Of a DNA stretch of 64,000 nucleotides, positions 2,895 to 52,737 are shown one piece after another; the first letter of the stretch is position 1, and each line of letters starts with the position of its first letter. Position numbers and translations under genes: made by a program. This DNA is from Ochrobactrum sp. RH2CCR150 (GTDB lineage Bacteria; Pseudomonadota; Alphaproteobacteria; Rhizobiales; Rhizobiaceae). A model generated the notes under the pieces. The model saw nothing but the letters and a program-made list of their open reading frames with translations. It was not told the DNA's origin and did no database searches. The stretch covers positions 248,001 through 312,000 of the forward strand of contig JACGXE010000001.1 of the NCBI GenBank assembly GCA_014138095.1, read 5' to 3'.

Positions 2895-2950
2895 TGCCTA
2901 AGAATAAGCGATTCGCGCAAAAAGCCAGACAAAAAAGCTTTTTTAAGCAA

Positions 2951-2975
2951 AACGGCGCGGTTTTACCGCGCCGTT
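2951..2975 (-). terminator. rho-independent terminator after the DUF2852 gene
   Basis: A perfect 10-bp stem (AACGGCGCGG with its complement) around a 5-nt loop. On the minus strand it is followed by a TTTT-containing stretch. It lies about 30 bp after the DUF2852 stop and separates that gene from the YgjP-like gene. Confidence 0.8.
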
Positions 2976-3003
2976 TCGAGAGATTTCAGGGCGTTATACA
3001 TCA

Positions 3004-3450
3004 TCAAAGATCGGTGATGTCGTTCTTGCCGCCCTTTGCTGGCGTCTTCTTGGCGGCAGCGCGTCGCTCGGCCATGAAGCGGTCGAATTCTTCCTTGTCG
3101 CGTGCGCGGCGAAGCTCTGCGGCATAGGATTCGAATTCGGCGCGGGCTTCGTCAAGCTTGCGGCGCTCTTCGGCAAGACGGTCCAGTTCTTCGCGACGCC
3201 AGTCGTCGAAGGCTGCATTGCCGGTTGCGCTGCCAAAGTTGAAGCTCTCGCTTTTGCGGCAGTTGCGGAAATAACCGAACATGGAATCGGTCTTCTCGTT
3301 GACGCCGCGCTTGAACCCTTCGAGACGGTCGCCCCAAAGGATATAGGCGAGCATGGCAAGGCCAAGCGGCCAGAAGAGAAAGAAGCCGAGCACCATCAGC
3401 GCAATCGTGGCTGGCGTCCATGCCGGTCGTATCAATGCGGAATTGGTCAT
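3004..3450 (-). CDS. DUF2852 membrane protein
   Basis: A 148-residue protein. Residues about 12-40 are one or two hydrophobic helices (ATIALMVLGFFLFWPLG...). A basic/aromatic stretch follows, and then a highly charged C-terminal half (WRREELDRLAEERRKLDEARAEF) expected to form a coiled coil. This is the layout of the alphaproteobacterial DUF2852 family, whose function is unknown. I use the internal Met of MTNSALIRPAW as the start, as is usual for the family; the frame could begin 12 codons earlier. It is followed by a strong terminator, so it is probably monocistronic. Confidence 0.85.
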   Translation of the reverse strand: MTNSALIRPAWTPATIALMVLGFFLFWPLGLAMLAYILWGDRLEGFKRGVNEKTDSMFGYFRNCRKSESFNFGSATGNAAFDDWRREELDRLAEERRKLDEARAEFESYAAELRRARDKEEFDRFMAERRAAAKKTPAKGGKNDITDL

Positions 3451-3607
3451 GGTCTGCTCCATAATAATCAGGCCTGCCAGGTCCACATCATGCGGACATT
3501 TGTGTTTGGCGGCTTGATTTCGAATTGGTGAAGGGATTGCGGCATTTCAAGAATGTCGCAATCCGATTCCAGCCCGATTCAGAGGGAGTCAGAGCTAACC
3601 AATGTGA

Positions 3608-4759
3608 TTATCTCGAAATTTTTTTCCGAAAATGTTCGAGAAAAGTAACGGCAAGCCCGGCAATCAGGGCCCAGAAGGCAGAGCCGACCCCGAAAAACGC
3701 CATGCCGGAGGCGGTTACAGCGAAGGTGATCGTGGCTGCGAGGCGCTCCGGTTCGTCCTTCAGGGCAAGCGACATGGCGTTGATGAACGGGCCGGTCAGG
3801 GCAAGACCGGCAACCAGCGCAATCAGCGTTGTTGGCAGGACGGCAAAGATCGCGACCAGCGACGCGCCGAACAAAGCGAACACCACATAGATTGCCGCAT
3901 AGACCGGGCCGGTCAGCCAGCGCTTGGTCGGATCTGGATGCGCGTCGGGATTGGTGCAGAGCGCTGCCGAAATTGCTGCCAGATTGGTGGTCGATGCGCC
4001 GAAGGGCGCGGACAGAATGGAAAACAGGCCTGTCACACGCAGGCAGGCGCTGGTTGGCGGTTCATAGCCGGATGCGCGCAGCACGGCGAAACCGGGCAGG
4101 TTCTGTGACGCCATGGTCACGAGATAGAGCGGCAAGGCGAGGCCGATCATCGCGCCCAGATGAAATTCGGGCCAGACGAGGGTGAGCGTAGAGATTTCCG
4201 GTGCGGGCAGGGTTGGCGAGCGGCCTGAGACAAGCGCGAAGATCATGCCGACCACCAGAACGGCGATGACCGCCAGCGATGGATTGAAGAGGCGGATCAG
4301 GAAGAACAGCGCCACCAGCGGCAATACGAAAACGGGATCGAAAGGGACGGTCTTTGCGGCAGCGATGACGAAGCTCAACAGCACGCCCGCAAGCATGCCG
4401 GAGGCTACCGATGCCGGTATGCGCGACACCAGAACCGAAAGCTGGCGGATCAATCCCGTGGCAATCAGCGCCAGCGCCGTCACGATGAAGGCGCCGACAG
4501 CTTCCGCCATGGTGAAACCGGCGCTTGCGCCGATCAGCGCCAGTCCGGGCGTCGACCATGCCGCGATGATCGGCATGCGATAGCGGGTGCTGAGCCAGGC
4601 CGAGGTGGCGGCGATGGAAAGACAAATGGCCGTGACCCAGCTCGCCGTTTGGGCCTGCGTGGCGCCCAGAACCTGTGCGGCGGCGATGATCAGCGCCAGC
4701 GTGCCGCCGAAGCCGACAATGGCAGCAACCGCCGATGACGCGATGACCGAAAAGCGCAT
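3608..4759 (-). CDS. benE: BenE-family benzoate/H+ symporter-like transporter
   Basis: A 383-residue, strongly hydrophobic inner-membrane protein with about 11-12 predicted helices. Family marks include the segments STPGLALIGASAG (about residues 68-80), LPLYLVTMASQNLPG (mid-protein) and FGASTTNLAAISAALC. BenE proteins are benzoate/proton symporters, but no benzoate-degradation gene lies nearby, so the substrate here may differ. It starts 13 bp after the stop of the alpha/beta hydrolase gene, so the two probably form an operon. Confidence 0.88.
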   Translation of the reverse strand: MRFSVIASSAVAAIVGFGGTLALIIAAAQVLGATQAQTASWVTAICLSIAATSAWLSTRYRMPIIAAWSTPGLALIGASAGFTMAEAVGAFIVTALALIATGLIRQLSVLVSRIPASVASGMLAGVLLSFVIAAAKTVPFDPVFVLPLVALFFLIRLFNPSLAVIAVLVVGMIFALVSGRSPTLPAPEISTLTLVWPEFHLGAMIGLALPLYLVTMASQNLPGFAVLRASGYEPPTSACLRVTGLFSILSAPFGASTTNLAAISAALCTNPDAHPDPTKRWLTGPVYAAIYVVFALFGASLVAIFAVLPTTLIALVAGLALTGPFINAMSLALKDEPERLAATITFAVTASGMAFFGVGSAFWALIAGLAVTFLEHFRKKISR

Positions 4760-4772
4760 GATGATGCCCCGT

Positions 4773-5576
4773 TTATGCTGTTGCGGTCACGCGTTCTGCC
4801 AGACCGGAAACCGTGCGGATGAGAAGATCGAGATCCTGCGGCCGTGACAGCCTGTGGTCGCCGTCACGCACAAGCGTCAACGTCACATCGTCAACCGGCA
4901 GATGCTCTACCAGCGTCAGCGCGTGCTTGTATGGCACGTCCGGGTCCTGCATGCCTTGCAGAATATGCACCGGGCAACCCGTTTCGATAATGCCCTTGAG
5001 CACGACGTTCTTGCGACCGTCTTCTATCAATGCGCGTGTGTAGACATAAGGGTTGGGCGAATAATCGGACGGCTCTTCGAAATACCCCTTTTCCTGCAAG
5101 TCGCGCTTCTGTGCGTCGGAAAGGCTTGGCTCGACAAGTGCCGCCGTGAAATCGGGAGCAGGAGCAATCAGCACGATGCCAGCAGGCGACTTGCCTTCCT
5201 TCATCAGTTCCTGCGCCATGCGCAGCGCGATCCAGCCGCCCATGGATGAGCCGACAAGAATCTGCGGACCCTTGGCGTAATGGCGATAGGCGGCGAGGCT
5301 TTCGTTGAGCCAGCGCGAGATCGTGCCCTCGTTGAAGTCGCCACCGGATTCGCCATGGCCGGAATAATCGAGCCTTAACGCGCTGTGGCCGGTTTTTTCG
5401 GCCCATTGATCAAGAACCACGGCCTTGGTGCCGAGCATGTCGGAGCGATAGCCACCCAACCAGACAAGTCCGGGCTGATTTTTGCCCTCTCTATGGCGAA
5501 CAGCGATCTTCGCGCCGTCAACGTCAAGAAATTCCGGCAGCAATTCCTGCTCCACTTCTGGCCCTGCATTGCTCAT
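4773..5576 (-). CDS. alpha/beta hydrolase
   Basis: A 267-residue serine hydrolase. The nucleophile elbow GSSMGG puts the catalytic serine at residue 111. The acid is probably Asp211 or Asp213 (QDPDVPY) and the base His241 (DGDHRLS). The oxyanion region is probably LGGYRSDM near residue 40. The sequence resembles the ABHD10/short-chain thioesterase group, but the substrate cannot be read from it. No signal peptide, so probably cytosolic. It is the first gene of a two-gene unit with the BenE-type transporter and is divergent from infC. Confidence 0.85.
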   Translation of the reverse strand: MSNAGPEVEQELLPEFLDVDGAKIAVRHREGKNQPGLVWLGGYRSDMLGTKAVVLDQWAEKTGHSALRLDYSGHGESGGDFNEGTISRWLNESLAAYRHYAKGPQILVGSSMGGWIALRMAQELMKEGKSPAGIVLIAPAPDFTAALVEPSLSDAQKRDLQEKGYFEEPSDYSPNPYVYTRALIEDGRKNVVLKGIIETGCPVHILQGMQDPDVPYKHALTLVEHLPVDDVTLTLVRDGDHRLSRPQDLDLLIRTVSGLAERVTATA

Positions 5577-5874
5577 CTGAGTCTCCCGATAATTGGGATG
5601 TCTTGTGCCATGTCTCGCGAAGCGAGGAAACCCGCGCGATTGGTGGAAGCATTTGGCACATCTTGAAATTGAAGGAAATGTGACCGATATGTCGCTTTTC
5701 GCCCCTGATTTAGCTCTTTATCACGTGGGGGTGATTTTTCCTGTCAAAGATGCTATTGACTTCGCCGCTTGCTTGACGACAAGTCCGCGATCAACTGCGG
5801 TTGGATCGGGGATATGTCGTGTAAGCGACAAAAGTTCTTGCCGTATGAACGTTAACAATCAGGAGATAACGACC
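5577..5874. other. intergenic region upstream of infC
   Basis: About 300 bp without a supportable gene between the hydrolase and infC. A long frame runs through it in phase with infC, but it has no ribosome site and the conserved protein begins at the ATT at 5875. An imperfect stem is visible at about 5788-5810 and a small TGTCG/CGACA stem at 5815-5830. Both could lie in the infC leader. I found no convincing promoter. Confidence 0.5.
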
Positions 5875-6411
5875 ATTCGCCGACCGTTCAGAGCGACGCC
5901 GGTCCAGAAAGACGGACCGCGCTCCAACCGTGACATCCGGGTTCCCCGGGTCCAGCTTATCGATGCCGAAGGCCAGAACCACGGTGATGTTTCCATTCAG
6001 GAAGCTATCGCCATGGCAGAGGAAGCGGGCCTCGATCTCGTTGAGATCGTGCCGAACGCAGAGCCTCCGGTTTGCAAGATCGTAGACCTTGGTAAGCTGA
6101 AGTATCAGAACCAGAAAAAGGCCGCCGAGGCACGCAAGAAGCAGAAAACGGTTGAAATCAAGGAAATCAAGATGCGACCGAACATCGACACCCATGACTA
6201 TGAGGTGAAGATGAAAGCTGCTCTGCGTTTCTTTGAGGAAGGCGACAAGGTCAAGGTCACCTTGCGTTTCCGCGGCCGTGAAATGGCGCACCAGGAGCTT
6301 GGTATGAAGCTTCTGCAGCGCGTCAAGGAAGACACTGTCGAAATCGCGAAGGTCGAGTCCGAGCCAAAGCTCGAAGGCCGTCAGATGATGATGGTGCTCG
6401 CACCGCGCTGA
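5875..6411 (+). CDS. infC: translation initiation factor IF-3, AUU start
   Basis: IF-3 binds the 30S subunit, prevents early joining of 50S and proofreads the start codon. The 178-residue protein has the N domain ([12 protein letters not shown] to about residue 80), a lysine-rich linker ([12 protein letters not shown]) and the C domain with [14 protein letters not shown]. The start is ATT at 5875, with AGGAG at 5861-5865, so a 9-nt gap. The next plausible ATG upstream lacks conservation. AUU starts on infC let IF-3 repress its own translation, and the same logic is inferred here. Confidence 0.95.
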
Positions 6412-6430
6412 TTTTTCAGCATAGTCTTGG

Positions 6431-6456
6431 AAAAGCCGCCTTCGGGCGGTTTTTCT
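6431..6456 (+). terminator. terminator after infC
   Basis: GCCGCC-TTCG-GGCGGT stem flanked by AAAA and TTTTT, 20 bp after the infC stop. It separates infC from rpmI-rplT. Confidence 0.85.
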
Positions 6457-6506
6457 TTGCAATTAAGCAACTGAGCCGCATTGAATATGGCAACTGTGGA
6501 ACGATC

Positions 6507-7121
6507 ATGAAGACAATAGGTGAATTGGGGAAGTATCAGCAGCGCCGCCGTCTGGCGATTGGCGTTGTGATTGCGCTTCTGGTGATCGCGCTGCTTTTCG
6601 TCCGCTCTTCCTGGGTTGGACGGGTTCATGAATATATCGAGTCCATCGGTCTCAGCTTCATCGTTGCCGCGATTCTCGGGCGCATGTGGTGCACGCTGTA
6701 TATCGGCGGGCGCAAGAGCGCCGAAATTGTGCGCAGCGGTCCCTATTCGATGACGCGTAACCCGCTTTATGTGTTCAGCACGCTTGGCGCCATGGGCATC
6801 GGCGCGCAGACGGGCAGTGTCATCGTGGCTGTCGGCTTCGGCGTCCTTTGCTATGTCGCCTTTTCCATCGTCATCCGCACGGAGGAGAAGTTTCTGGAGC
6901 AGACTTTCGGCGAGCCGTATCGCGCTTATTGCCGGGATGTTCCCCGCTTCTTCCCGAAGTTCTCGATCTATAATGATGATGCGACGGTGACGGTGAAGCC
7001 GGATCGCCTGTATCGCACCTTTACGGACGGTCTGGTGTTCTTCGTAGCCTATCCGTTCTTTGAATTTATCGAATACCTGCAGGACATTCATGCCTTGCCG
7101 GTTTTGCTGCGGCTTTATTGA
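6507..7121 (+). CDS. isoprenylcysteine carboxyl methyltransferase-like membrane protein
   Basis: A 204-residue integral membrane protein with four or five hydrophobic helices. It carries the ICMT/phospholipid methyltransferase signature RSGPYSMTRNPLYV (about 77-90) and, further on, RTEEKFLEQTFGEPYRAYCRDVPRFFP, typical of bacterial members. These proteins use S-adenosylmethionine; bacterial substrates are mostly unknown and no prenylated protein is expected. It sits between infC and rpmI, which are adjacent in many bacteria. It has its own ATG after the infC terminator. Confidence 0.85.
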   Translation: MKTIGELGKYQQRRRLAIGVVIALLVIALLFVRSSWVGRVHEYIESIGLSFIVAAILGRMWCTLYIGGRKSAEIVRSGPYSMTRNPLYVFSTLGAMGIGAQTGSVIVAVGFGVLCYVAFSIVIRTEEKFLEQTFGEPYRAYCRDVPRFFPKFSIYNDDATVTVKPDRLYRTFTDGLVFFVAYPFFEFIEYLQDIHALPVLLRLY

Positions 7122-7143
7122 TTCATTTCAGTCGATTCAGCCA

Positions 7144-7172
7144 TTGCGTTTTATGGGCTTTGAGCCTATAAG
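7144..7172 (+). promoter_or_regulatory. probable promoter of rpmI-rplT
   Basis: TTGCGT (7144-7149), a 17-bp spacer, then TATAAG (7167-7172), close to the sigma-70 consensus. It would give a leader of about 165 nt before rpmI. Confidence 0.55.
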
Positions 7173-7182
7173 GCCGCGTTCG

Positions 7183-7274
7183 AACCGCCCGGCAGGGCAT
7201 GCCGTGGCGGTTTCGTATGCTTTTCAGGCTCGGTCTGCCTGAAAGTAAAAACAGATTTCGGTCGGTTTCAGGCA
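7183..7274 (+). promoter_or_regulatory. structured leader of rpmI-rplT with mutually exclusive stems
   Basis: A strong stem at 7183-7212 (AACCGCC plus CGGCA arms) is followed by TTTCAGG (7222-7228), TGCCTGAAA (7236-7244) and TTTCAGGCA (7266-7274). The middle segment can pair with either flank, but not both. L20 represses its own operon through leader RNA in other bacteria, so such a switch is plausible here, but this is inference. Confidence 0.5.
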
Positions 7275-7290
7275 CGAACGCCCTCCATAA

Positions 7291-7334
7291 CAAGAGGCGT
7301 GGAGTGCCGCAGGCACGACGGGGACGAAACAAAG
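7291..7334 (+). repeat. single copy of the CAAGAGGCG hairpin element before rpmI
   Basis: CAAGAGGCGTGGAGTGCC, GCA loop, GGCACGACGGGGACGAAAC. It matches the units found in tandem before pheS (8081-8204). It ends next to the rpmI ribosome site AAAGGAG (7331-7337). Confidence 0.7.
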
Positions 7335-7344
7335 GAGTAGCAAA

Positions 7345-7545
7345 ATGCCCAAGATGAAGACCAAATCGGCCGCCAAGAAGCGGTTCAAAATCACCGGCAC
7401 TGGCAAAGTTGTAGCTGCAGCTGCAGGCAAGCGCCATGGCATGATCAAGCGCTCGAACAAGTTCATTCGCGATGCACGCGGCACCATGGTGCTCTCGGAA
7501 GCAGATGCGAAGATCGTAAAACAGTTCCTGCCTAACGGCCTCTAA
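7345..7545 (+). CDS. rpmI: 50S ribosomal protein L35
   Basis: A structural protein of the large subunit. At 66 residues it has the normal length and the conserved start [15 protein letters not shown], followed by [26 protein letters not shown] lies 8 bp before the ATG. It is followed 27 bp later by rplT, so the two are co-transcribed. Confidence 0.98.
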
Positions 7546-7572
7546 GCCGCTGTCCTTTAAGGAGATCATAAT

Positions 7573-7977
7573 ATGGCACGCGTAAAACGCGGCGTTACTT
7601 CACACGCCAAGCACAAAAAAGTTCTCGATCAGGCTGCCGGTTTCCGCGGTCGTCGCAAGAACACCATCCGCACCGCTAAGGCTGCAGTTGATCGTTCGAA
7701 GCAGTATGCTTACCGCGATCGCAAGAATCGCAAGCGTACCTTCCGCGCTCTCTGGATCCAGCGCATCAATGCTGCTGTCCGTGAGCAGGGCCTGACCTAT
7801 GGCCGTTTCATCGACGGTCTGGCAAAGGCTGGTATCGAAGTTGACCGCAAGGTCCTGTCCGACATCGCAATCCACGAACCGGATGCATTCGGTGCGCTGG
7901 TTGCATCGGCGAAGAAGGCTCTTGAGTACCTCAAGAACACCGAAACGCCGAACGCTTTTGAAGGCGCTGTCCGCTAA
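7573..7977 (+). CDS. rplT: 50S ribosomal protein L20
   Basis: Binds 23S rRNA early in large-subunit assembly and in other bacteria represses its own operon. The 134-residue protein begins [18 protein letters not shown] and has the family stretch [23 protein letters not shown]. Length is slightly above the enterobacterial form because of a short C-terminal tail ([13 protein letters not shown]). It follows rpmI with a clear AAGGAG site and ends at a strong terminator. Confidence 0.98.
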
Positions 7978-8012
7978 GCCAGCCCTTCCCAAGTGATATT
8001 GTGAATTTGGGG

Positions 8013-8046
8013 AACCCGCGCTGGCTCGGCTGGCGCGGGTTTTTCT
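8013..8046 (+). terminator. terminator after rplT
   Basis: AACCCGCGC with GCGCGGGTT as a 9-bp stem around an 11-nt loop, then TTTTCTTTCTT. It lies about 35 bp after rplT. Confidence 0.85.
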
Positions 8047-8080
8047 TTCTTATCTGGTGCCCGTTGCAAATATCGCCGAT

Positions 8081-8204
8081 GAAGAGGCGTGGGTGTTGCA
8101 GGCGCGACAGGGCGTAAACCAAGAGGCGACGAGTGTCTTTAGACACGAGTGGGATGTAAACAAGAGGCGTCGAGTGTCCCTTGGACACGAGAGGGATATA
8201 GACA
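8081..8204 (+). repeat. three tandem hairpin units of about 41 bp in front of pheS
   Basis: Units start at 8081, 8120 and 8161. Each has AAGAGGCG, a short hairpin and a GGG-containing tail ending in TAAAC or TAGACA. The hairpin arms differ but stay paired in units 2 and 3 (GTGTC/GACAC; GTGTCC/GGACAC), while unit 1 is degenerate. The GAGGGA of the last unit (8191-8196) acts as the pheS ribosome site. A fourth copy lies before rpmI. I do not recognise the element as a named RNA. Confidence 0.75.
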
Positions 8205-9314
8205 ATGAGCGATCTTGAACAACTCGAACAAACGATCATGGGCGAAATCGCCGCCGCCAGCGATGAGCAGGCGATTGAAGCGGTCCGCGTCGCGGCGCTG
8301 GGCAAGAAGGGCACGGTTTCCGAAAAGCTGAAACTGCTTGGCACCATGACCCCGGAAGAGCGCCAGGTTCAGGGACCGGCGATCAACGGTTTGAAGAACC
8401 GCGTCACCGATGCGCTGACCGAGCGCAAGACCGCGCTGCGCAAGGCGGCTGTTGCGGCCCGCCTTGAGCGCGAAAAGCTCGATGTAACGCTGCCAGTCCG
8501 TGAAAGCGCTGCTTCGCGCGGTCGCATTCATCCGATTTCGCAGGTGGTGGACGAGATCACCGCGATCTTCGCCGATATGGGTTTTTCGATTGCCGAAGGT
8601 CCGGATATCGAGACCGATTACTACAATTTCACCGCGCTGAATTTCCCGGAAGGGCACCCGGCGCGCGAGATGCACGACACGTTCTTCTTCAATCCGGACG
8701 AGAAGGGCGAGCGCAAGCTTCTGCGCACGCATACCTCGCCGGTGCAGGTGCACACGATGGAGAAGTTTGCAGCGATCCGTGACAAGGAAGGCCGCGACGA
8801 GCCGATCCGCATCGTGATCCCGGGCAAGACCTATCGCATGGATTCCGACGCCACCCATTCGCCGATGTTTCATCAGGTCGAAGGTCTGGTCGTGGACAAG
8901 TCGGCCAATGTCGCCAACATGAAGTGGGTGCTGGAAGAGTTCTGCAAGTCGTTCTTCGAAGTGCCGTCGGTGACGATGCGCATGCGCCCGAGCTTCTTCC
9001 CGTTCACGGAACCGTCTGTCGAAGTGGACATTCAGTGCGACCGTTCCGGCCCGCATGTGAAGTTCGGCGAAGGCAATGACTGGCTCGAAATTCTGGGCTG
9101 CGGCATGGTGCATCCGAATGTGCTGCGCGCTTCCGGCTATGATCCGGACGTCTATCAGGGCTTTGCCTGGGGCATGGGCATCGATCGCATCGCCATGCTG
9201 AAATACGGCATGCCAGATCTGCGCGCCTTCTTCGATGCCGATGTGCGCTGGATCAACCATTACGGTTTCCGTCCGCTCGATCTGCCAACACTGTTCGGTG
9301 GCCTGAGCGCATGA
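8205..9314 (+). CDS. pheS: phenylalanyl-tRNA synthetase alpha subunit
   Basis: Charges tRNA-Phe as an alpha2beta2 enzyme; this subunit carries the catalytic core. In 369 residues there is an N-terminal coiled coil (1-90), then the class II motifs: [19 protein letters not shown] (motif 1 region), [14 protein letters not shown] (motif 2 region) and [18 protein letters not shown] (motif 3). It starts right after the last copy of the tandem hairpin repeat. Its stop overlaps the ASCH gene by 4 bp, so pheS and pheT are separated by one gene but probably share a transcript. Confidence 0.98.
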
Positions 9315-9736: not shown

Positions 9737-12151
9737 ATGAAATTCACGCTTTCCTGGCTCAAGGATCACCTTGAAACCGATGCGACGCTCGAACAGATCG
9801 TCGAAAAGCTGACCGATATCGGTCTTGAAGTGGAATCGGTCGATGACCGCGCTGCCTTCAAGGCTTTCAAGATCGCCAAGGTGGTGAGCGCCACCCAGCA
9901 TCCCGATGCTGACAAGCTGCGCGTACTCTCCGTCGATACGGGCGATGGCAAGCCGGTTCAGGTCGTTTGCGGTGCGCCGAACGCCCGCACGGGTCTGGTC
10001 GGTGTTCTGGGCCGTCCGGGCGACTATGTTCCGGGTCTTGATGTCACCTTGTCAGTCGGCAAGATTCGCGGTGTCGAAAGCTTCGGCATGATGTGTTCCG
10101 AGCGCGAGCTGGAACTGTCCGACGAGCACAACGGCATTATCGATCTGCCGGAAAATGCACCGGTCGGCACCAGCTTTGCGGCCCATATGGGGCTTGATGA
10201 TCCGATCATCGAAATCGGCCTCACGCCAAACCGCGCCGATTGCACCGGCATTCACGGTATTGCCCGCGATCTGGCAGCCGCCGGTCTTGGCACGCTGAAG
10301 AACACGCTGCCTGCCGCCGCCAAGGGCGAAGGCGAAACGCCCGTCAAGATCATTCTCGATCAGGATGCAGCAAACCCGTTCTGCCTCGGCTTTGCGCTGC
10401 GCATGGTCAAGGGCGTGAAGAACGGCCCAAGCCCGAAATGGATGCAGCAGCGTTTGAAGGCAATCGGTCTGCGCCCCATCAATGCGCTGGTGGATATCAC
10501 CAATTACGTGACCTTCGATCAGGGCCGTCCGCTGCATGTGTTTGACGCGGCCAAGGTCAAGGGCAATCTGACGGTGCGTGCCGCCAAGGATGGCGAAACC
10601 ATTCTGGCGCTCGACCAGCGCGAGTACAAGCTGAACACCGGCATGTACATCATCGCCGATGAGAACGGCCCCGAATCGATTGCCGGTATTATGGGCGGTG
10701 AGCATTCGGGCTGCGACGAGAACACCACGGATGTGCTGATCGAATCCGCTCTGTGGGATGCCCGCATGATTGCGCGCACGGGCCGCGAACTCGGCATCGT
10801 CACAGATGCACGCTATCGTTTCGAACGCGGCGTCGATCCGGAAATGATGGTTCCGGGTGCGGAAATTGCGACCAAGATGGTTCTGGATCTGTGCGGCGGA
10901 CAGCCGACGATGCTGGACGTTGTCGGGTACAAGGCTCCTGCGTCGCGCGTCATCGATTTCCCGGTCACGGAAGTGAAGCGCCTGACGGGTATCGAGGTTT
11001 CCTACGATGCCTCGCTGGATATTCTCAAGCGCCTCGGTTTCGGTGTTGAAGGTGACGGCAAGGTTATCAAGGCGACGGTGCCGACATGGCGCGGAGACGT
11101 GGAAGGCAAGGCCGACCTCGTTGAAGAAGTCATGCGTATTCACGGCATCAACCAGATCGAGCCGCAGCCGCTGCCGAGCCATGGCGCCGTCAATGGTCGC
11201 ATCCTGACCACATTGCAGATCCGCACGCGTCATGCCCGCCGTATGCTCGCTTCGCGCGGCATGCTGGAAGCGGTGACCTATTCCTTCATTTCCGAAGCGC
11301 AGGCCAAGGCATTTGGCGGCGGCCAGCCGGAACTGAAGCTCGCCAACCCGATTGCATCCGACATGTCGGACATGCGTCCGTCGCTTCTGCCCGGCCTGCT
11401 GGCCGCGGCACAGCGCAATGCGGATCGCGGTTTCGGCGATATCGCTTTGTTCGAAGTGTCAGGCATTTACGAAGGAGACACGCCGGAGAAGCAGCGCCGT
11501 GTGGCGGGCGGTATCCGTCGTGGAACGGCAGGCGTTGAAGGCGCTGGTCGTTTCTGGTCCGGCAATGCCGCAACGGTCGGTGTGTTCGACGCCAAGGCCG
11601 ATGCGCTGGCCGCACTGGAAGCTGCCGGTGCGCCGGTTGATCGCATCCAGATCGAAGCCGGTGGTCCGGAATGGTTCCATCCGGGCCGTTCGGGCACGCT
11701 GAAGCTTGGCCCCAAGGTCGTTCTCGGCACGTTCGGCGAGTTCCATCCGGACACGCTGGAAGCGCTCGATGTGTCGGGCAATCTCTGCGGTTTCGAAATC
11801 TATATTGATGCGATCCCTGAGCCGAAGGCAAAGGCAACCCGCACGAAGCCTGCGCTCAACCTGTCGCAGTTCCAGAGCCTCAAGCGCGATTATGCCTTTG
11901 TGGTGGATGCGAATGTTGAAGCAGGCAATGTCGTGAAAGCGGTTTCCGCTGCCGACAAGAAGCTGATTGTCGGCGTGCAGGTGTTCGACGTCTTCACGGG
12001 CGCATCGCTTGGCGAAGGCAAGAAGTCGATCGCGGTTGAAGTGCTGCTGCAACCACAGGATCGCACCCTGACTGACGAAGACCTGGAAGCGCTGTCCCGC
12101 CAAGTGGTGGCCAGTGTCGCCAAACAGACCGGCGGCGTGCTGCGCGGATAA
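9737..12151 (+). CDS. pheT: phenylalanyl-tRNA synthetase beta subunit
   Basis: The 804-residue beta chain that binds tRNA-Phe and edits mischarged tyrosine. Domain order is normal: N-terminal EMAP-like tRNA-binding domain (about 40-150, ending near SEREL), B3/B4 editing domain (about 205-385, [15 protein letters not shown]), B5 domain (about 405-480), catalytic-like core, and a C-terminal anticodon-binding FDX-ACB domain (about 710-804, [16 protein letters not shown]). Start ATG with AGGAAAG upstream. It ends in a strong terminator, closing the pheS-ASCH-pheT operon. Confidence 0.98.
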
Positions 12152-27171: not shown

Positions 27172-28110
27172 ATGGCTCTCAAAGTCGCGGTCCAGATGGA
27201 CCATATCAGCACGATCAACATCAAGGGCGACACGACATTTGCGCTTTCGCTGGAGGCGCAGAAGCGCGGCCACGAGCTGTATCACTACACGCCTGACCGC
27301 CTGTCGATGCGCGACGGCGTCGTTTCGGCCCGTCTCGAAAAGCTGGACGTGCGCGACGTCGTGGGCGACCATTTCACACTGGGCGAGCCTATCCGCCGCG
27401 ACATGTCGGAAATGGATGTGGTGCTGCTGCGCCAGGACCCGCCATTCGACATGAACTACATCACCACCACGCATCTTCTGGAGCGCATTCATCCAAAGAC
27501 GCTGGTCGTCAACGATCCGGCCTGGGTGCGCAACAGCCCCGAAAAGATTTTTGTCACCGAGTTTCCTGACCTGATGCCAGAAACGCTCATCACCAAGGAC
27601 CCGCAGGAAGTCATGGATTTCCGCCGGGAGTTCGGCGACATCATCCTCAAGCCGCTTTATGGCAATGGCGGCGCGGGCGTGTTCCATCTTGCCGATGGCG
27701 ATCGCAATCTCTCATCGCTGCTCGAAATGTTCGGACAGCTCTTCCGAGAGCCGTTCATTGCCCAGCGTTATCTGAAAGATGTGCGTGCAGGCGACAAGCG
27801 CATCATCCTGATTGATGGCGAGCCGGTGGGCGCGATCAACCGCGTGCCGTCTGAAACCGACGCCCGCTCCAACATGCATGCTGGCGGCAAGGCCGAACAG
27901 AGCAAGCTGACGCCGCGCGAACGCGAAATCTGCGAACGCATCGGACCGTCCTTGCGGGAGCGTGGCTTCATTCTCGTCGGCATCGATGTCATTGGCGACT
28001 ATATGACCGAGATCAATGTTACCTCGCCGACCGGAATCCGCGAGATTGAGCGTTTCGACGGAACCAATATCGCTGCGCTGTTCTGGGATGCGGTGGAAGC
28101 AAAGCGATAA
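27172..28110 (+). CDS. gshB: glutathione synthetase
   Basis: Joins gamma-glutamylcysteine and glycine using ATP. The 312-residue protein has the GshB N domain ([24 protein letters not shown] at the start) and a C-terminal ATP-grasp fold (about 125-312), including the [10 protein letters not shown] loop and the metal-binding [17 protein letters not shown] near 280. Length and sequence are those of the bacterial enzyme. A terminator follows, so it is likely a single gene. The start is the ATG at 27172 after GAGGAA. Confidence 0.96.
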
Positions 28111-28338: not shown

Positions 28339-28416
28339 ATATTATTGCCAATGTCGCGCTTTAGTGCTGAATTCAATCTATTCAGTGATTTACGAATAGT
28401 ATTCGAGGGGATTTCT

Positions 28417-31149
28417 ATGCGTCGTTCGACTGGGAACAGAAAAAGTCACGCCTTTCCGTTACTGCGTTTGACCGCACCTCAGTTCAAAATGCCCATACCC
28501 GTTATCGGGGTTCTTTTCCTCTTTCCATATACAGAGACCGCGCTGGCCGACTGTACACCCGCATCTCCTGCTTCCGGCGGTACTGTCATCTGCAACGGCA
28601 ATCCGAACGGGTTCAGCACCAGCGGACTTGGCAGCCTCGATGTCGTGATCCAGCAGAACACCAATCTGAACGGCCCTTTCACGGCCAGCAGCATGGGTGC
28701 GCTGACCGTCGACAATTCGGGTAATATGCAGAGCGCTGTCATAACCGACGCGACCAGCCTCGTTTTCGACAATCGCGCCACGATCAATGGCGGCCTGACG
28801 ATCAGCGGTACCGGCACCTATACGGTCCACAATTACGCCAATTCGCATATCAATTCGGCTTTCAGCTTCACCGGCAACAGCACCAATATCATTACCAATG
28901 ATGGCACGCTGAACAACGGCGTCACCATCAATGGCGATGGCCGGACCAACATTACCAACACCACCGGCGCCTCGCTCAACAACGGCATTTTCGTCAACGG
29001 CGCCAGCCAGACCTATGTGCAAAATTACGGCACGATCCAGAGCACGATCGCGCTTGGTTCCGGCAATGACACGATCATCAACTACGACCCCGGCCAGATA
29101 AACGGCAATGTTTCGCAAGGGTCAGGCGACGATATTTTTGACATGCGCGGCGGTCGTGTCAGCGCAACTGTCAATCAGGACGACGGCAACGACGTCTTCT
29201 TACTGTCCGGCGGCGAAGTCACCGGCTCGCTGATGGCAGGCGCAGACACCGACTACATGCTATGGACCGGCGGTCTGATCGGCGGCATCGATATGGGCAC
29301 GGAAAATGACGTGGCCGTGTTTCAGGGGCTGACCGACACGCAACTGAGAGGCATCCAGATCAATGGTGGTCTCGGCACGGATCAGCTGACCTGGCAGAAC
29401 ACCAAGGGCAGCAATCCGCAGCGTCTGATCAACTGGGAGCTTATCCAGCTTCTGAGTGCATCGGAGCTGACGATGAACAGCAATCTGACGCTCGGCGACA
29501 GCGGCACCTCGACCGGTACGCTCTCGATCGATTCGACCAGCTATCTGCGTGCAGGCAGTGGCACCTGGACCATCAGTCCCGCAGTGAGTGGCAGCCTCAC
29601 GCAAGTGGTGAATGCTGGCGTGATCGATCTGACCAACGGCTCCAATTCCACGTCGGATAGCCTCACCATTGTCGGTAATTATCAGGGCAATTCCGGCCAG
29701 CTCTGGTTGAATACGGTTCTCGCGGGCGACAATGCACCGTCCGACAAGCTGGTTATTTCAGGCGGTACGACGACCGGCTCGACCGGTATCGTGGTCACCA
29801 ATGTAGGAGGGACAGGCGCGCAGACCCAGCAGAACGGTATTCTGGTTGTGGAGGCGGTCAACGGAGCGACCACCGGTGCAGGCACGTTCACGCTCGCTCG
29901 ACGCGCCTCTGCCGGCATTTACGAATATCAGCTGGTTCAGGGCGGAGTGACGGATGGCACGGACAATAACTGGTATCTGCGCAACAATTTCTCCGGTATC
30001 GACACCAGCAACCCTAACATTCCAGCCGAATGGTTGATACCTGGCCCGGATGAGGGCGATGGTGGCAGCACCGGCGGCGGCTCTGGCGGTGGCACAGGTG
30101 GCGGAACCGGTGGTGGTACTGGCGGCGGTACAGGGGGTGGCACTGGTGGAGGAACCGGCGGCGGATCGGATGGTGGTGACGGCGGCGGCAGTGTTACGCT
30201 GGTCCGTCCCGAAGTTCCGATTTTGAGTGCAACGCCAACTGTCGTGCGCGGCCTGCTGCGCGTGGCTCTGGGCACGTTCCACGAACGCCATGGCGAACAG
30301 TCTTGGTTTGGCGATGAGGCAAACAAGAACGTCATCTGGGCGCGTATATTCGGCGATCAATATCGCCAGAACCTGAGCACATTCGCAGATCAGCGCTATA
30401 AAGGTAACCAGTGGGGCATGCAGTTCGGCGTGCCGGTCTATCGCGCCGAACACGACAACGGCCAGCTGGACACCGTCGGCCTCATGGCAAGCTATGCTCG
30501 GGGCTGGGGCGACATGCGCGCCAGAAACATCTACGGCAATAATATCGAGATCGGAAATATCGATATCGATGCCTATAGTCTCGGCGCGTACTGGACCCAT
30601 ACGTGGCAGGATGAGGCTTATATCGACGCCATCATCATGCATTCCTGGCTCAGCATCGATACGGAATCGGTTGCGAACTATAGTTCCAGCTTCCACGGCA
30701 AGGAATGGACGGCATCTCTCGAAGCCGGTAAAAAATTCTCGATCACTGAAAAATGGGTGCTGGAGCCGCAAGCACAGATCTACTGGCAGTATCAGAATTT
30801 CGACGATACGAGCGATCCGGGTGCTTCGATCCGCTTTGACAATAACGATAGCTGGACAGGCCGTATCGGCGCACGTCTGCAAGGCAATTACACGATCAAT
30901 GAACGGCCATTCAATCCGTTCGTACTGGCCAATGTCTGGCACCAGTTCAAGGCGAGCGATACGATCTATTTCAACAACGACTCGGTTCACCCATCCTGGG
31001 AAGAAACCAGCCTCGAATTGGGTGCAGGCTTCACAACCAAGGTTGCCGACAACACTTCGCTTTATGCCAATGCATCCTATGAGTTCAATCTGGGGGGCGA
31101 GCGCTTCCGGGTCGTTTCCGGTCGCTTGGGCGCCCGCATTTCCTGGTAA
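28417..31149 (+). CDS. type V autotransporter with repeat-bearing passenger
   Basis: A 910-residue secreted/outer-membrane protein. A long signal region (1-44, ending ETALA) is followed by a Thr/Asn/Gly-rich passenger predicted to be a beta-helix. Residues 213-302 hold four and a half units of 20 residues with a GxGxD-like core (for example GSGNDTI, GSGDDIF, DGNDVF). A glycine-rich linker (about 542-592, GGGT repeats) leads to a C-terminal beta-barrel (about 640-910) ending in the aromatic ARISW, as needed for BAM insertion. GAGGGG 6 bp before the ATG at 28417 decides the start. Such proteins act as adhesins in Brucella; this one is of unknown target. Confidence 0.88.
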   Translation: MRRSTGNRKSHAFPLLRLTAPQFKMPIPVIGVLFLFPYTETALADCTPASPASGGTVICNGNPNGFSTSGLGSLDVVIQQNTNLNGPFTASSMGALTVDNSGNMQSAVITDATSLVFDNRATINGGLTISGTGTYTVHNYANSHINSAFSFTGNSTNIITNDGTLNNGVTINGDGRTNITNTTGASLNNGIFVNGASQTYVQNYGTIQSTIALGSGNDTIINYDPGQINGNVSQGSGDDIFDMRGGRVSATVNQDDGNDVFLLSGGEVTGSLMAGADTDYMLWTGGLIGGIDMGTENDVAVFQGLTDTQLRGIQINGGLGTDQLTWQNTKGSNPQRLINWELIQLLSASELTMNSNLTLGDSGTSTGTLSIDSTSYLRAGSGTWTISPAVSGSLTQVVNAGVIDLTNGSNSTSDSLTIVGNYQGNSGQLWLNTVLAGDNAPSDKLVISGGTTTGSTGIVVTNVGGTGAQTQQNGILVVEAVNGATTGAGTFTLARRASAGIYEYQLVQGGVTDGTDNNWYLRNNFSGIDTSNPNIPAEWLIPGPDEGDGGSTGGGSGGGTGGGTGGGTGGGTGGGTGGGTGGGSDGGDGGGSVTLVRPEVPILSATPTVVRGLLRVALGTFHERHGEQSWFGDEANKNVIWARIFGDQYRQNLSTFADQRYKGNQWGMQFGVPVYRAEHDNGQLDTVGLMASYARGWGDMRARNIYGNNIEIGNIDIDAYSLGAYWTHTWQDEAYIDAIIMHSWLSIDTESVANYSSSFHGKEWTASLEAGKKFSITEKWVLEPQAQIYWQYQNFDDTSDPGASIRFDNNDSWTGRIGARLQGNYTINERPFNPFVLANVWHQFKASDTIYFNNDSVHPSWEETSLELGAGFTTKVADNTSLYANASYEFNLGGERFRVVSGRLGARISW

Positions 31150-35384: not shown

Positions 35385-36491
35385 ATGACAAGCGCAACCA
35401 CGCGCAAGGCCACGGCAGACGACATTGATGCGTTATTGCGCATCGAAGAGCGCTGCTTCGAAGCAGACCGTATTTCCCGACGCTCCTTCCGCGCCTTAAT
35501 CGCGCGTCCCACCGCTGAAACGATCATTGCGGAAGCCGATGGCAACATCATCGGCTATGCGATGATCCTTTTCCGGCACGGTACGGCGATGGCGCGGCTC
35601 TATTCGATCGCCGTCGATCCGGATGCGAGTGCCAGGGGTATTGGTGCGCTTCTGCTGCAGGCTGCTGAAACGGCGGCCTATGAGCACGACCGCCCGCTGT
35701 TGCGGCTTGAGGTGCGCGAGGACAATGCACGGGCCATCGCGCTTTATAAACGCAACGGTTATCGCCCAATCGGGCGCTATCTCGATTATTATGCGGATCA
35801 TTCCGACGCCCTGCGTTTTGAAAAGACGGTGCGCGGCGGCACCCCTCCGATCACGACATTTCCCTATTATCGGCAGACGACCGATTTCACCTGCGGGGCG
35901 GCCTGCCTCATGATGGCGCTCGCCTATCACAAGCCCGGCGTGCAACTCGATCCGGTGCTGGAAGTTCGCCTGTGGCGCGACGCGACCACCATTTACATGA
36001 TGTCTGGGCCGGGGGGCTGCGAACCTTTCGGCCTTGCCGTCGCCGGGTATGAGCATGGATTGAAGGCGTCCATCATCGTTTCCATCGAGGATATGCTGTT
36101 TTTGCAATCGGTGCGTTCGGAGAAAAAACGCCGGGTGATGCAGCTCGCGCAAACCGACTTTCGCCAGCGCACGGAAGCCTATGGCATTCCGGTGGATTAT
36201 CGCAGCTTTACCTTGTTTGACATCGTCACGGCGCTGCGGCGTGGCGCGTCGGTGGTCGTTCTGATCAGCGGCTATCTCATGTTCGGCAACAAGGTGCCGC
36301 ATTGGGTTCTCGCCCACGGCGAAGATGGCCGCCATATTTTTATTCATGATCCGTGGGTGGAAGAGGAACAAGGCGAAAGCATCGCCGATGCGGCCAATGT
36401 GCCGGTTCCATTCCACATCTTCGACCGCATCGCCCGTTTCGGCCGCGATGGGCTCAGAGCAGCAGTGATTCTCGAAAAAGGGACAGATTGA
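35385..36491 (+). CDS. GNAT acetyltransferase fused to a C39-like peptidase
   Basis: A 368-residue two-domain protein. Residues 1-145 are a RimI-like GNAT fold (acetyl-CoA loop near VDPDASARGIGALLL). Residues 155-368 are a C39-like papain-fold peptidase with Gln164, Cys170 (FTCGAACLMM), His306 (VPHWVLA) and Asp322 (IHDPW) in the expected order. The pair could acylate and trim a peptide. It overlaps the next gene by 1 bp (TGATG), so both are co-translated. Similar GNAT/C39/ATP-grasp clusters were described from genome analysis; the product is unknown. No signal peptide. Confidence 0.85.
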   Translation: MTSATTRKATADDIDALLRIEERCFEADRISRRSFRALIARPTAETIIAEADGNIIGYAMILFRHGTAMARLYSIAVDPDASARGIGALLLQAAETAAYEHDRPLLRLEVREDNARAIALYKRNGYRPIGRYLDYYADHSDALRFEKTVRGGTPPITTFPYYRQTTDFTCGAACLMMALAYHKPGVQLDPVLEVRLWRDATTIYMMSGPGGCEPFGLAVAGYEHGLKASIIVSIEDMLFLQSVRSEKKRRVMQLAQTDFRQRTEAYGIPVDYRSFTLFDIVTALRRGASVVVLISGYLMFGNKVPHWVLAHGEDGRHIFIHDPWVEEEQGESIADAANVPVPFHIFDRIARFGRDGLRAAVILEKGTD

Positions 36492-37951
36492 TGACGATTT
36501 GCGTCATTCTCGTTGGGCGCCTCTCGGATATCGATAATGGCGCCACACCGCACAAGGTCATGACCAATCGTGACTATCTCGCGCATCCGGCGCTGTTCAA
36601 CGGCCAGCAGCGCCCGCGCATCATCAACCTGTCGCGCACCTATGCCTACCAGAGCCGCGGCTATTATGCCTCGCTTCTGGCGGAAGCGCGCGGCCATCGC
36701 ATCATTCCGTCCGTTGAGACGATGATCGATCTTTCCGAGCGTCGGCTCTATGAGAATGCCATTCCCGAACTGGAAGACATGCTCAACAAGGCGCTCGGCA
36801 AGCATCCGGAAAAAGCGCCTGAAACCATCCACGTCCATTTCGGTCTGGCCGAGAACCCGGAATTCGAGCGTTTCGGCAGGCTTTTGTTCGATTGGTTCCG
36901 CGCGCCGTCGCTGGAAGTGACGATCAAGCCGGGTGAGTGGGCGCGTATCCAGAAAATCGGCTTCTCCAATATTTCGAAATTCTCGAAACATCAAAAGGAG
37001 CGTTTTGAGGATGCGCTCGACCGCTACACCCAGCGCGAATGGCGGGCGGCCAAGCCGAAAGTTCCGGCCCGTTATTCTGTTGCGACGCTCTGCGATCCGA
37101 AAGAGGCGATGCCGCCATCATCCATGGCGTCTCTGAAGCACTGGGCGAAGATCGCGGCGCGGCTTGGTGTTGAGGTCGAACCAATCGGCAAGAAGGACCT
37201 GTCGCGTCTTGCCAATTACGACGCGCTGTTCATCCGCGAAACCACATCGATTTCCAACCACACCTATCGCTTTGCGCGCCGGGCGCAGCAGGAAAACATG
37301 CCGGTCATCGATGATCCGATTTCGATGATCCGTTGTACCAACAAGGTCTATCTGCACGAGCTGATGCAGGCCAATGATGTGGCGGTGCCGCAGACCGTGA
37401 TGATTGCTGGTGAGGAGGATCTGGAGCGGGCCGCTGATATGCTGGGCTTTCCGCTGGTCATCAAGATCCCGGATTCCTCGTTCTCGCGCGGTGTGAAGAA
37501 GGTGAGTGATCTGGGCGAGCTGAAGGCGCTGGCAATGCTGTGGCTTCAGGATAGCGATCTTTTGCTGGCGCAGAAATATATGCCGACCCGGTTCGACTGG
37601 CGCGTGGGCGTCCTCGACGGCAAGCCGCTTTTCGTCTGTCAGTATATGATGGCGAAAAACCACTGGCAGATCGTGAAGCACGATACGGGCGGCAAACCGC
37701 TTGAGGGCGGCTTTCGCACCTATACGCTGGCAGAGGCCCCGCAAGCCGTTCTGGAAACCGGCCTGCGCGCTGCGCGGTGCATCGGCAATGGCTTGTATGG
37801 TGTCGATCTGAAGGAGACGGATGACGGTGTCGTGGTGATTGAAGTCAACGACAATCCCAATCTAGAACACGGCATCGAAGATGCGGCGGAAAAGGATGAC
37901 GTCTGGGTCAACCTGACCAAGTGGTTCACCGACCGGCTGGATCGCAAATAA
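36491..37951 (+). CDS. RimK-like ATP-grasp ligase with N-terminal RLAN domain
   Basis: A 486-residue protein. The N-terminal part (1-about 150; begins TICVILVGRLSDIDNGATPHKVM) is the RLAN domain that accompanies a class of RimK-like enzymes. The C-terminal ATP-grasp domain (about 270-480) has SNHTYRFARRAQ, VIKIPDSSFSRGVKKV and the metal-binding VVIEVNDNPNLEHGIED. RimK-type enzymes form amide bonds by adding amino acids to a protein or peptide carboxyl end. The 1-bp overlap with the GNAT-C39 gene predicts joint action on one peptide substrate. Confidence 0.86.
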   Translation: MTICVILVGRLSDIDNGATPHKVMTNRDYLAHPALFNGQQRPRIINLSRTYAYQSRGYYASLLAEARGHRIIPSVETMIDLSERRLYENAIPELEDMLNKALGKHPEKAPETIHVHFGLAENPEFERFGRLLFDWFRAPSLEVTIKPGEWARIQKIGFSNISKFSKHQKERFEDALDRYTQREWRAAKPKVPARYSVATLCDPKEAMPPSSMASLKHWAKIAARLGVEVEPIGKKDLSRLANYDALFIRETTSISNHTYRFARRAQQENMPVIDDPISMIRCTNKVYLHELMQANDVAVPQTVMIAGEEDLERAADMLGFPLVIKIPDSSFSRGVKKVSDLGELKALAMLWLQDSDLLLAQKYMPTRFDWRVGVLDGKPLFVCQYMMAKNHWQIVKHDTGGKPLEGGFRTYTLAEAPQAVLETGLRAARCIGNGLYGVDLKETDDGVVVIEVNDNPNLEHGIEDAAEKDDVWVNLTKWFTDRLDRK

Positions 37952-52236: not shown

Positions 52237-52737
52237 ATGATGGGCTTGCCATTCGGTCGCTTCGGACGCCGACAGGTTTCAGTGGAAGCGCTCAGCGCGC
52301 AGGACAGTCATGCGATCCAGCGCATTCATGCTGTTGCCTTTCATCATGGCTGGAGTTCTGACGATTTCCGCTCGCTGATCGCGCAGGATACGGTTTTCGG
52401 CTTTGTCGCCCGTGCGCAAGGCAAGCCCAATGACGCCTGCGGCTTCGTGCTGGCGCGGCTGGTGGCCGGTGAGGCGGAAATCCTCACCATCGCGGTTTCT
52501 CGCGATGTGCAGCGGCAGGGTGTCGGTCGCGCGCTGATGGATGCGGTGTTGCGCTATCTCTATCAGGAACGGGCGGAAACGCTGTTTCTTGAAGTCGATG
52601 AAGCCAATATCGCTGCGCAGGCGTTGTATCGGCGTCTCGGGTTCCAGAAAGTCGGCGATCGTCCGGCCTATTACGAAACCGCCAATGGACGCTCGGCAGC
52701 GCTCGTTCTGCGGCGCGATCTGAAGAGACCGCAATGA
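52237..52737 (+). CDS. rimI: GNAT acetyltransferase RimI
   Basis: A 166-residue GNAT fold that acetylates the N-terminus of ribosomal protein S18. Motif A: ILTIAVSRDVQRQGVGRALMDAVL (acetyl-CoA loop QRQGVGR), then LEVDEANIAAQALYRRLGF. It begins 3 bp after tsaB and overlaps the plsC start by 4 bp. An N-terminal part (1-30) is longer than in E. coli RimI. Confidence 0.88.
   Translation: MMGLPFGRFGRRQVSVEALSAQDSHAIQRIHAVAFHHGWSSDDFRSLIAQDTVFGFVARAQGKPNDACGFVLARLVAGEAEILTIAVSRDVQRQGVGRALMDAVLRYLYQERAETLFLEVDEANIAAQALYRRLGFQKVGDRPAYYETANGRSAALVLRRDLKRPQ

Follow-up and report, generated by a model that had tools for sequence, protein, structure and literature searches.

According to the passages of PMC8070244 that deal with it, Ngg N-acetylates one glutamine and joins a second, and a peptidase gene is present in its operon. 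Operons combining R2K.3 ATP-grasp ligases with a GNAT are described in the R2K.3 account of PMC4431377 as predicted peptide makers, in which the GNAT may cap the peptide. For the DUF3335 family, the relevant portion of PMC10318531 notes frequent fusion to GNAT domains and a close relation to PF09778, citing Iyer et al. 2009, whose amidoligase work is also cited in the consulted part of PMC12239564. Here we describe a two-gene cassette that was found in a stretch of 64,000 nucleotides (hereafter the window) from Ochrobactrum sp. RH2CCR150 (Rhizobiaceae, α-proteobacteria; assembly GCA_014138095.1, contig JACGXE010000001.1, positions 248,001 to 312,000 of the forward strand). Its first gene encodes a RimI-like GNAT fused to a DUF3335 domain, a C39-like papain fold, and its second gene encodes a RimK-like ATP-grasp ligase with an RLAN domain.

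We tentatively propose that the cassette is a self-contained unit producing a small N-acylated peptide, in which the C39-like domain acts as a hydrolase. This reading is favored because the near-constant pairing of GNAT and ligase, their occasional fusion and the optional hydrolase resemble the logic of Ngg. The GNAT domain would transfer an acyl group, most simply acetyl, to the α-amine of a single amino acid or a short peptide. In an ATP-dependent reaction, the RLAN ligase would link a carboxylate with the amino group of a further amino acid. The C39-like domain would hydrolyze an amide bond, either in the product or in an intermediate, as a recycling or trimming activity that can be lost from a lineage. 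In this proposal the reactions, their sequence, the compounds they act on and the biological role (compatible solute, store or signal) are inferred.

Linkage of the GNAT and the ligase, and the optional C39-like domain

We analyzed 159 RLAN ligase loci, comprising 32 loci from a class-level draw (with the window, these represent all 33 genomes with a match), 3 from an order set, 80 from a named set (the best 80 of 583 relatives, rich in Mesorhizobium), 40 from a phylum set (40 of the 72 genomes with a match) and 4 plasmid records. The loci are partly non-independent, and two of them (L084 and L166) are the same place. In 156 of the 159 loci a cassette-type GNAT is found no more than 2 kb from the ligase, either co-directional with it or, in many phylum-set loci and in Pseudomonas, divergent from it. 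Loci with both GNAT-C39 and the ligase include those of Mesorhizobium ciceri WSM1271 (L146) and Azospirillum brasilense HAMBI_3172 (L187). The GNAT profile was built from the cassette GNATs, and it gave only three further matches in the same loci, at 28-32 bits.

There are three exceptions to this pairing. In one locus (L236) no GNAT stands beside the ligase, but an unlinked GNAT-C39 gene is present elsewhere in the genome. In Pseudomonas aeruginosa (L118) the GNAT was not found within 10 kb of the ligase. In a 9-kb record of Legionella adelaidensis (L121, 41-3232) the place of the GNAT is taken by two genes that come after the ligase and encode a GCS2-type ligase and a homologue of N-formylglutamate amidohydrolase. 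The reverse extreme is represented by two loci of the same genus (L096 and L270), where the GNAT and the RLAN ligase form one reading frame; both parts are confirmed by Pfam in L270. Such a fusion couples the GNAT with the reaction of the ligase. In two further loci the ligase match falls into two pieces (L085, 5299-6776; L191, 6001-7727), which are possibly broken copies or sequencing errors.

The C39-like domain is distributed less regularly. It accompanies the ligase in 19 of 32 class-set, 53 of 80 named and 27 of 40 phylum-set loci, and is thus missing beside the ligase in 13 loci of the class set. Among the 289 genomes of the class draw, RLAN was detected in 33, DUF3335 in 26 and both in 21; the 12 RLAN genomes without DUF3335 anywhere, some of which are incomplete, still have the GNAT beside the ligase. 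Conversely, five genomes of this draw possess DUF3335 without RLAN (G096, G109, G222, G224 and G322), and their DUF3335 frames of 222-253 residues leave no room for a GNAT. In the phylum draw (398 genomes) RLAN was found in 72 genomes, DUF3335 in 58 and both in 57, G096 being the only one with DUF3335 alone, and the best DUF3335 match is within 4 kb of the RLAN ligase in 55 of the 57 genomes. Fisher tests of co-occurrence gave 4e-19 (class) and 1e-53 (phylum), values that are not true probabilities because the genomes are kin and the draws overlap. A further search, aimed at importer-linked DUF3335, matched 28 of 297 genomes, with frames of 352-464 residues, a cassette-like length.

In both draws, then, DUF3335 frames of GNAT-containing length occur only alongside the ligase, and the ligase with its GNAT is often found without C39. 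Since the ligase and GNAT manage without C39, and GNAT-C39 was not found without the ligase in these draws, the substrate of the C39-like domain is most likely something that the GNAT and ligase produce or use. The earlier note on this DNA, made from the sequence alone, had counted proteolysis as an integral third step of the unit; this part of its proposal is not supported, and C39 as an essential third activity was rejected on the grounds of its optional occurrence. In a weakly supported GNAT tree the stand-alone GNATs of Chelativorans are placed among the fused ones, which suggests that C39 was secondarily lost there.

The distribution within the genus was followed through the BTLCP cysteine-proteinase gene, the upstream neighbour of the pair on the opposite strand in the window, which was searched in 34 genomes; 30 loci were viewed. 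In 17 of them, including the source genome, the GNAT-C39 gene and the start of the ligase directly adjoin the BTLCP gene. In the other 13 the RlpA gene adjoins BTLCP instead of the pair, and no RLAN match was found anywhere in these 13 genomes. Because either the pair or RlpA stands beside BTLCP, and an RlpA-like DPBB gene lies downstream of the ligase in the window, the pair has been gained or lost as a unit at one site. It is a conserved unit rather than a chance arrangement. The RLAN match is split in two less complete genomes of the genus (G001 and G006). In another relative (L016, 316-2883) the GNAT, C39 and ligase occupy one frame of 855 residues, owing to a frame difference close to where C39 ends; this is a single case, which may be a natural fusion or an assembly error.

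Domain assignments and conserved residues

Both open reading frames are present in the window at the positions listed in Table 1, and their Pfam domains agree with the two-gene unit described in the earlier note: the final base of the TGA stop codon of gene 1 is the A of the ATG start codon of gene 2, an overlap of 1 bp. The hairpin that follows gene 2, missed by a simple terminator scan, is probably the end of the two-gene unit. A simple scan of the + strand gave no promoter-like site.

Table 1. Features of the cassette in the window, and selected elements in the loci of its relatives
Feature	Location	Strand	Remarks
Gene 1, RimI-like GNAT fused to DUF3335 (C39-like) papain-fold domain	35385..36491	+	368 aa
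GNAT domain, residues 15-126	35427..35762	+	Pfam PF00583, E 6.3e-18; conserved Y136 just beyond
DUF3335/C39-like domain, residues 159-363	35859..36473	+	Pfam PF11814, E 1.7e-80; includes Q164, C170, H306, D322
Gene 2, RLAN-type RimK-like ATP-grasp ligase	36491..37951	+	486 aa
RLAN domain, residues 27-175	36569..37015	+	Pfam PF14401, E 2.1e-43
ATP-grasp region, ~residues 237-460	37199..37870	+	NCBIfam TIGR00768 stretch 237-459; Foldseek
20-bp perfect hairpin, terminator-like, directly 3' of gene 2 stop	37947..37989		Fold -35 kcal/mol, z -9.27
DUF2817 gene	L189 4665-5774	-	Between GNAT-C39 and ligase
DUF2817 gene	L256 7393-8469	+	Directly after ligase
DUF2817 gene	L268 7351-8436	-	Convergent, beside ligase
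DUF2817 gene	L269 3303-4367	-	Convergent, beside ligase
DUF2817 gene	L248 9585-10667	-	~2 kb off
CpxR-like box	L118 ~9818-9833; upstream of ligase gene in L192, L193, L196, L198-L201

The assignment to DUF3335 is strong (269.8 bits, against a gathering score of 25), as is that to RLAN (148 bits, cut-off 25), which is N-terminal to a RimK ATP-grasp domain (PF08443, 37.2 bits, cut-off 21, E-value 3.1e-9). The gene 2 protein also matches R2K_3 (31.3 bits, cut-off 26.3). None of four curated NCBIfam models reaches its cut-off. The best model for gene 1, rimI (TIGR01575, 82.6 or 85.1 bits), stays below its equivalog cut-off of 86.4; RimK α-L-glutamate ligase (TIGR00768) scores 78.6 bits on gene 2, short of the subfamily cut-off of 143.4; NAGGN synthetase (TIGR03103) reaches 29.7 bits on the GNAT part of the gene 1 protein only, against 569; and the MshD model gives 34.7 bits, against 163.1. 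By these cut-offs, the predicted cassette GNAT and ligase lie outside the RimI, RimK and NAGGN-synthetase families. Around the Q...C motif, the gene 1 protein has a marginal 33-residue match to the C39 peptidase family PF03412 (22.9 versus 22 bits) and a weak one to Guanylate_cyc_2 (GUCD1, PF09778; 19.9 bits). Only GNAT families, DUF3335 and the marginal PF03412 are above their Pfam cut-offs in this protein, and no ATP-binding cassette (ABC) transporter part was found in it.

Residue conservation was counted in 103 DUF3335 domains scoring above 200 bits (100 fused to GNAT and 3 stand-alone); left aside were L166, a duplicate locus, and the ligase matches below 500 bits (L085, L089, L120 and the second L191 piece). 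Gln164, Cys170 and His306 are present in all 103 domains, and Asp322 in 98, with Glu at this position in the other 5. The divergent stand-alone DUF3335 of L114, which is outside the 103, has an aligned Asn at position 322. The earlier note had read this catalytic set as intact in the window protein, as it is, and had named its mutation in most orthologues as the outcome that would speak against the cassette; its conservation across the relatives argues instead that the domain is probably an active enzyme. In the acetyltransferase part, E109 is found in 100% of the 100 fused and 98% of the 58 other cassette GNATs, Y121 in 95% and 100%, respectively, and Y136 in 100% of both. We take E109 and Y121 to be the counterparts of the catalytic Glu/Tyr pair of RimI. 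Ligase positions that are at least 97% conserved (n=155) include K285, K325, D369-W370-R371, H391-W392-Q393, D439, E451, N453 and N455; H391-W392-Q393 is not kept in the divergent Aeromonas ligase L120.

AlphaFold2 models have a mean predicted local distance difference test score of 89.4 for the gene 1 protein and 87.8 for the ligase; for the latter the predicted template modeling score is 0.60, so the placement of its domains is uncertain. The best Foldseek matches of the gene 1 model are Ard1/RimI N-terminal acetyltransferases, and the C39 part has no match among the best 50 rows. Those of the ligase model are RimK, LysX/ArgX and D-Ala-D-Ala ligases. No PDB chain corresponds by sequence to the RLAN part, as all 23 PDB profile matches of the ligase alignment begin at position 232 or later.

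DUF3335 outside the cassette and genes around it

We examined 13 DUF3335 loci outside cassettes. On plasmid pSINME02 of Sinorhizobium meliloti AK83 (L312, 2523-8615), a stand-alone DUF3335 gene is the last of a co-directional series after a substrate-binding protein, two ATPases and two permeases, and a homologous importer-DUF3335 operon is present in Microvirga VF16 (L314, ~2600-8590). A third genome (G523; L304, 5557-14394) has in a row a LysR regulator, an oligopeptide-type ABC operon, a DoeB-like deacetylase and a DUF3335 protein with at most a degenerate GNAT. The only NCBIfam match of this deacetylase is DoeB (N-acetyl-diaminobutyrate deacetylase), at 265.9 bits and below the cut-off of 402.7, and its Pfam domain is AstE_AspA_cat. 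A second DUF3335 gene of G523 (L304, 4136-5260, - strand) lies beside another ABC substrate-binding protein. This genome is probably a Mesorhizobium, since G407, of its own genus, has flanking genes in common with M. ciceri. The ABC operon of G523 is more distant from that of S. meliloti and Microvirga, and given this low identity its association with DUF3335 is probably independent of theirs. The Gln/Cys/His/Asp set is intact in the importer-linked proteins of all three genomes. As a control, 72 cassette loci, mostly shorter ones, were compared, and at most 2 of them contain a homologue of either permease. The other 10 non-cassette loci show isolated ABC ATPase matches at most, and the neighbours examined at the stand-alone loci L110-L112 and L308-L311 are uninformative. 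The importer and deacetylase operons are suggestive of DUF3335 acting on small, perhaps acylated peptides.

No generally conserved partner was identified around the cassette itself. The 202 genes flanking 102 loci include 23 co-directional ones at a distance of up to 50 bp, and families of immediate neighbours are shared by 5 loci at most. In a wider all-against-all comparison of flanking open reading frames, the most widespread families reach 11 of about 100 loci, and a generally conserved third enzyme was therefore rejected for the immediate neighbourhood. One of these families is DUF2817, to which Pfam assigns no function, presumably a relative of M14 carboxypeptidases and acyl-amino-acid deacylases. 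It was detected in 5 of the 159 cassette loci (344-384 bits in Pfam, cut-off 23; Table 1), where it is a possible second hydrolase, and was not found in the 10 non-cassette DUF3335 loci scanned. As to small genes, the 896 small open reading frames near 98 loci contain no credible cross-genus family: inspection of the 15 largest clusters showed that 10 are confined to three near-identical genomes, one runs antisense to the GNAT end, and the rest are weak pairs. A substrate-peptide gene adjoining the pair was accordingly rejected, in agreement with the earlier note, which had seen none in the window. Because there is neither a general third gene nor a conserved small open reading frame, the pair would be expected to act on commonly available molecules or on a ubiquitous protein.

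In Pseudomonas, a CpxR-like GTAAA-N6-GTAA box (9/10 positions) precedes the ligase gene in all 7 named loci, which are related, and in L118. Boxes reaching 9 positions elsewhere are present in 2 of 35 phylum-set and 0 of 97 α-proteobacterial loci, no excess over the background (4.2% of 261 windows), so that a general control of the ligase gene by CpxR was rejected. The letters of the L118 box match an entry in Table 1 of PMC12802237, and on this basis we take the L118 ligase gene to be PA1345; for the site before PA1345 in PAO1 that table records a hit in the motif search and none in DNA affinity purification sequencing, and the main text of the paper mentions PA1345 once. The box hints at a link of the ligase gene to envelope stress, in Pseudomonas only.

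The source genome has a size of 5.54 Mb. Ochrobactrum is assigned to the genus Brucella in GTDB, and the ligase of Ochrobactrum teleogrylli LCB8 is 96% identical to that of the window. A separate RimI is encoded in the window at ~52309-52698 (+ strand), scoring 93.9 bits and thus above the family cut-off, while the cassette GNAT reaches 85.1. A large open reading frame at 28345-31149 (+ strand) reads as an autotransporter with a Gly/Thr-rich repeat stretch, an identity assigned by reading alone.

Alternative readings and comparison with known systems

The earlier note had proposed the making or tagging of a peptide. As a general class of activity this stands, and between its two forms the evidence speaks more for a small peptide that is acylated than for a C-terminal addition to a distant protein. 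Several observations weigh against our proposal. The cassette GNAT is most similar to RimI/Ard1 protein N-terminal acetyltransferases, which act on the N-termini of peptides or proteins and not on free amino acids. The link to importers comes from probably two independent operons among the 13 non-cassette loci, and the importer-linked DUF3335 proteins are only ~31-40% identical to the cassette domain. Among 14 control genomes, that of Methanosarcina acetivorans contains DUF3335 but lacks RLAN. Finally, a synthase and a hydrolase in one operon would not be self-evidently sensible for a stored metabolite.

The similarity of the GNAT to RimI and Ard1, in both sequence and fold, is equally the starting point of the closest alternative, which we consider possible although less probable: the GNAT would acetylate, and the ligase add amino acids to, a ubiquitous protein, from which C39 would remove them as RimB does for RimK. 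The nearest relatives of the ligase, RimK/LysX and D-Ala ligases, fit such protein modification, as does the missing general third gene, which suits a chromosomally distant target. A model search detected no RimK above the family cut-off in the source genome, which is also in line with it. In the part of PMC12239564 that covers these systems, the action of RimK on ribosomal protein S6 (RpsF) is opposed by RimB, and a further locus pairing a ligase with a protease, RloC/RloA, is described. On the other hand, the cassette ligase itself stays below the RimK cut-off, and the occurrence of DUF3335 in peptide-importer and deacetylase operons points to small molecules, as does the RLAN ligase of L. 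adelaidensis with its two partners of small-molecule families.

ATP-grasp ligases and MshD-like GNATs are found in pathways of low-molecular-weight thiols. A glutathione- or mycothiol-like thiol or cofactor, in which an acylated Cys peptide would be made and the papain-fold domain would serve as transpeptidase or hydrolase, is in our view improbable. It draws on the MshD score, though this is far below cut-off, on the GCS2 partner in Legionella, and on phytochelatin synthase, which the consulted portion of PMC10318531 lists among the papain-fold relatives. Against it, no direct link to cysteine was seen, and the genome probably makes glutathione anyway: an ATP-grasp gene at ~27337-28092 of the window (+ strand), some 7 kb upstream of the pair, matches the RimK family model at 83.1 bits and is presumably a glutathione synthetase.

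Pathways of ribosomally synthesized and post-translationally modified peptides include both C39-like folds and ATP-grasp ligases, and C39 could cut a leader while the ligase forms cross-links as in graspetides. We consider this very improbable, as no conserved precursor-peptide gene was found near the 98 loci, transporter families are linked to the cassette in a few loci at most, C39 is dispensable, and within the genus just the pair is present or absent. A defence or toxin-antitoxin function, to which the patchy presence among relatives might point, was rejected, since no PADLOC family matched at E 0.01, the pair occupies one conserved chromosomal site within the genus, and the 4 phage matches are confined to the ATP-grasp part.

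If the small-peptide proposal is true, a common metabolite and its hydrolase would be named, and two Pfam families without a function would gain one. Given the frequency of RLAN (72) and DUF3335 (58) among the 398 genomes of the phylum draw, the unassigned product is probably made by many Proteobacteria, including Mesorhizobium, Azospirillum and Pseudomonas. The order of dependence predicts that removal of C39 raises the product and removal of the ligase abolishes it. The families are already in Pfam and the pathway has reportedly been predicted, so that the cassette is a member of a described kind; the literature searched contained no experiments on RLAN ligases or DUF3335 proteins, and no assay of peptidase or amidase activity for DUF3335.

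Among the known systems, the synthesis of N-acetylglutaminylglutamine amide (NAGGN; Ngg/AsnO and a peptidase, PA3459-PA3461) shares with the cassette the combination of N-acetylation and peptide-bond formation, there in the single enzyme Ngg, and a peptidase gene in the operon. Ngg has an ATP-grasp part. NAGGN synthesis differs in that its peptidase belongs to another family and that the cassette has no generally conserved third enzyme; TIGR03103 is absent from the matches of the fused GNAT-RLAN protein at E 1e-5. RimK/RimB and RloC/RloA, as treated in the consulted part of PMC12239564, likewise combine an ATP-grasp protein with a protease, which is retropepsin-like whereas that of the cassette is papain-like, and an acetyltransferase goes unmentioned there. 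The cassette ligase is set apart from RimK by its RLAN domain, by H391-W392-Q393 and by its score under the RimK cut-off. With respect to the R2K.3 operons, the RLAN score of the ligase is far above its R2K_3 score (148 versus 31.3 bits), with the RimK domain at 37.2, and the R2K.3 account in PMC4431377 makes no mention of RLAN or of a C39-like domain.

RimI, the N-acetyltransferase of ribosomal protein S18, provides the best curated model for the cassette GNAT and is among the nearest solved folds. In the weakly supported tree, 9 RimI proteins form their own group, and 8 other GNATs are placed, on a long branch, among the cassette GNATs. C39 bacteriocin peptidases (PF03412) and GUCD1 are linked to the cassette by the weak matches in the Q...C region, and GUCD1 also by the relation noted in PMC10318531, DUF3335 being its own Pfam family, and neither the ABC transporter part nor the leader-peptide substrate of the bacteriocin-type peptidases was found for the cassette.

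The mammalian N-acetylaspartylglutamate (NAAG) cycle, in the sections of the literature that describe it, has a GNAT, a RimK-like ligase, a peptidase and a deacylase acting on an N-acetyl dipeptide, a likeness to the cassette that is a functional parallel only. Its enzymes are NAT8L, RIMKLA/B, GCPII and aspartoacylase, and the peptidase is presumably unrelated to C39. By extension, though we regard this as doubtful, Proteobacteria might have a widespread and so far unrecognized N-acetyl-peptide cycle parallel to that of NAAG, in which the GNAT and RLAN ligase would make an acetylated di- or oligopeptide, DUF3335 would split it, some bacteria would import and consume it through the operons of ABC importer, DUF3335 and DoeB/AspA-like proteins, and the ligase gene of Pseudomonas may be under the control of the envelope-stress regulator CpxR.

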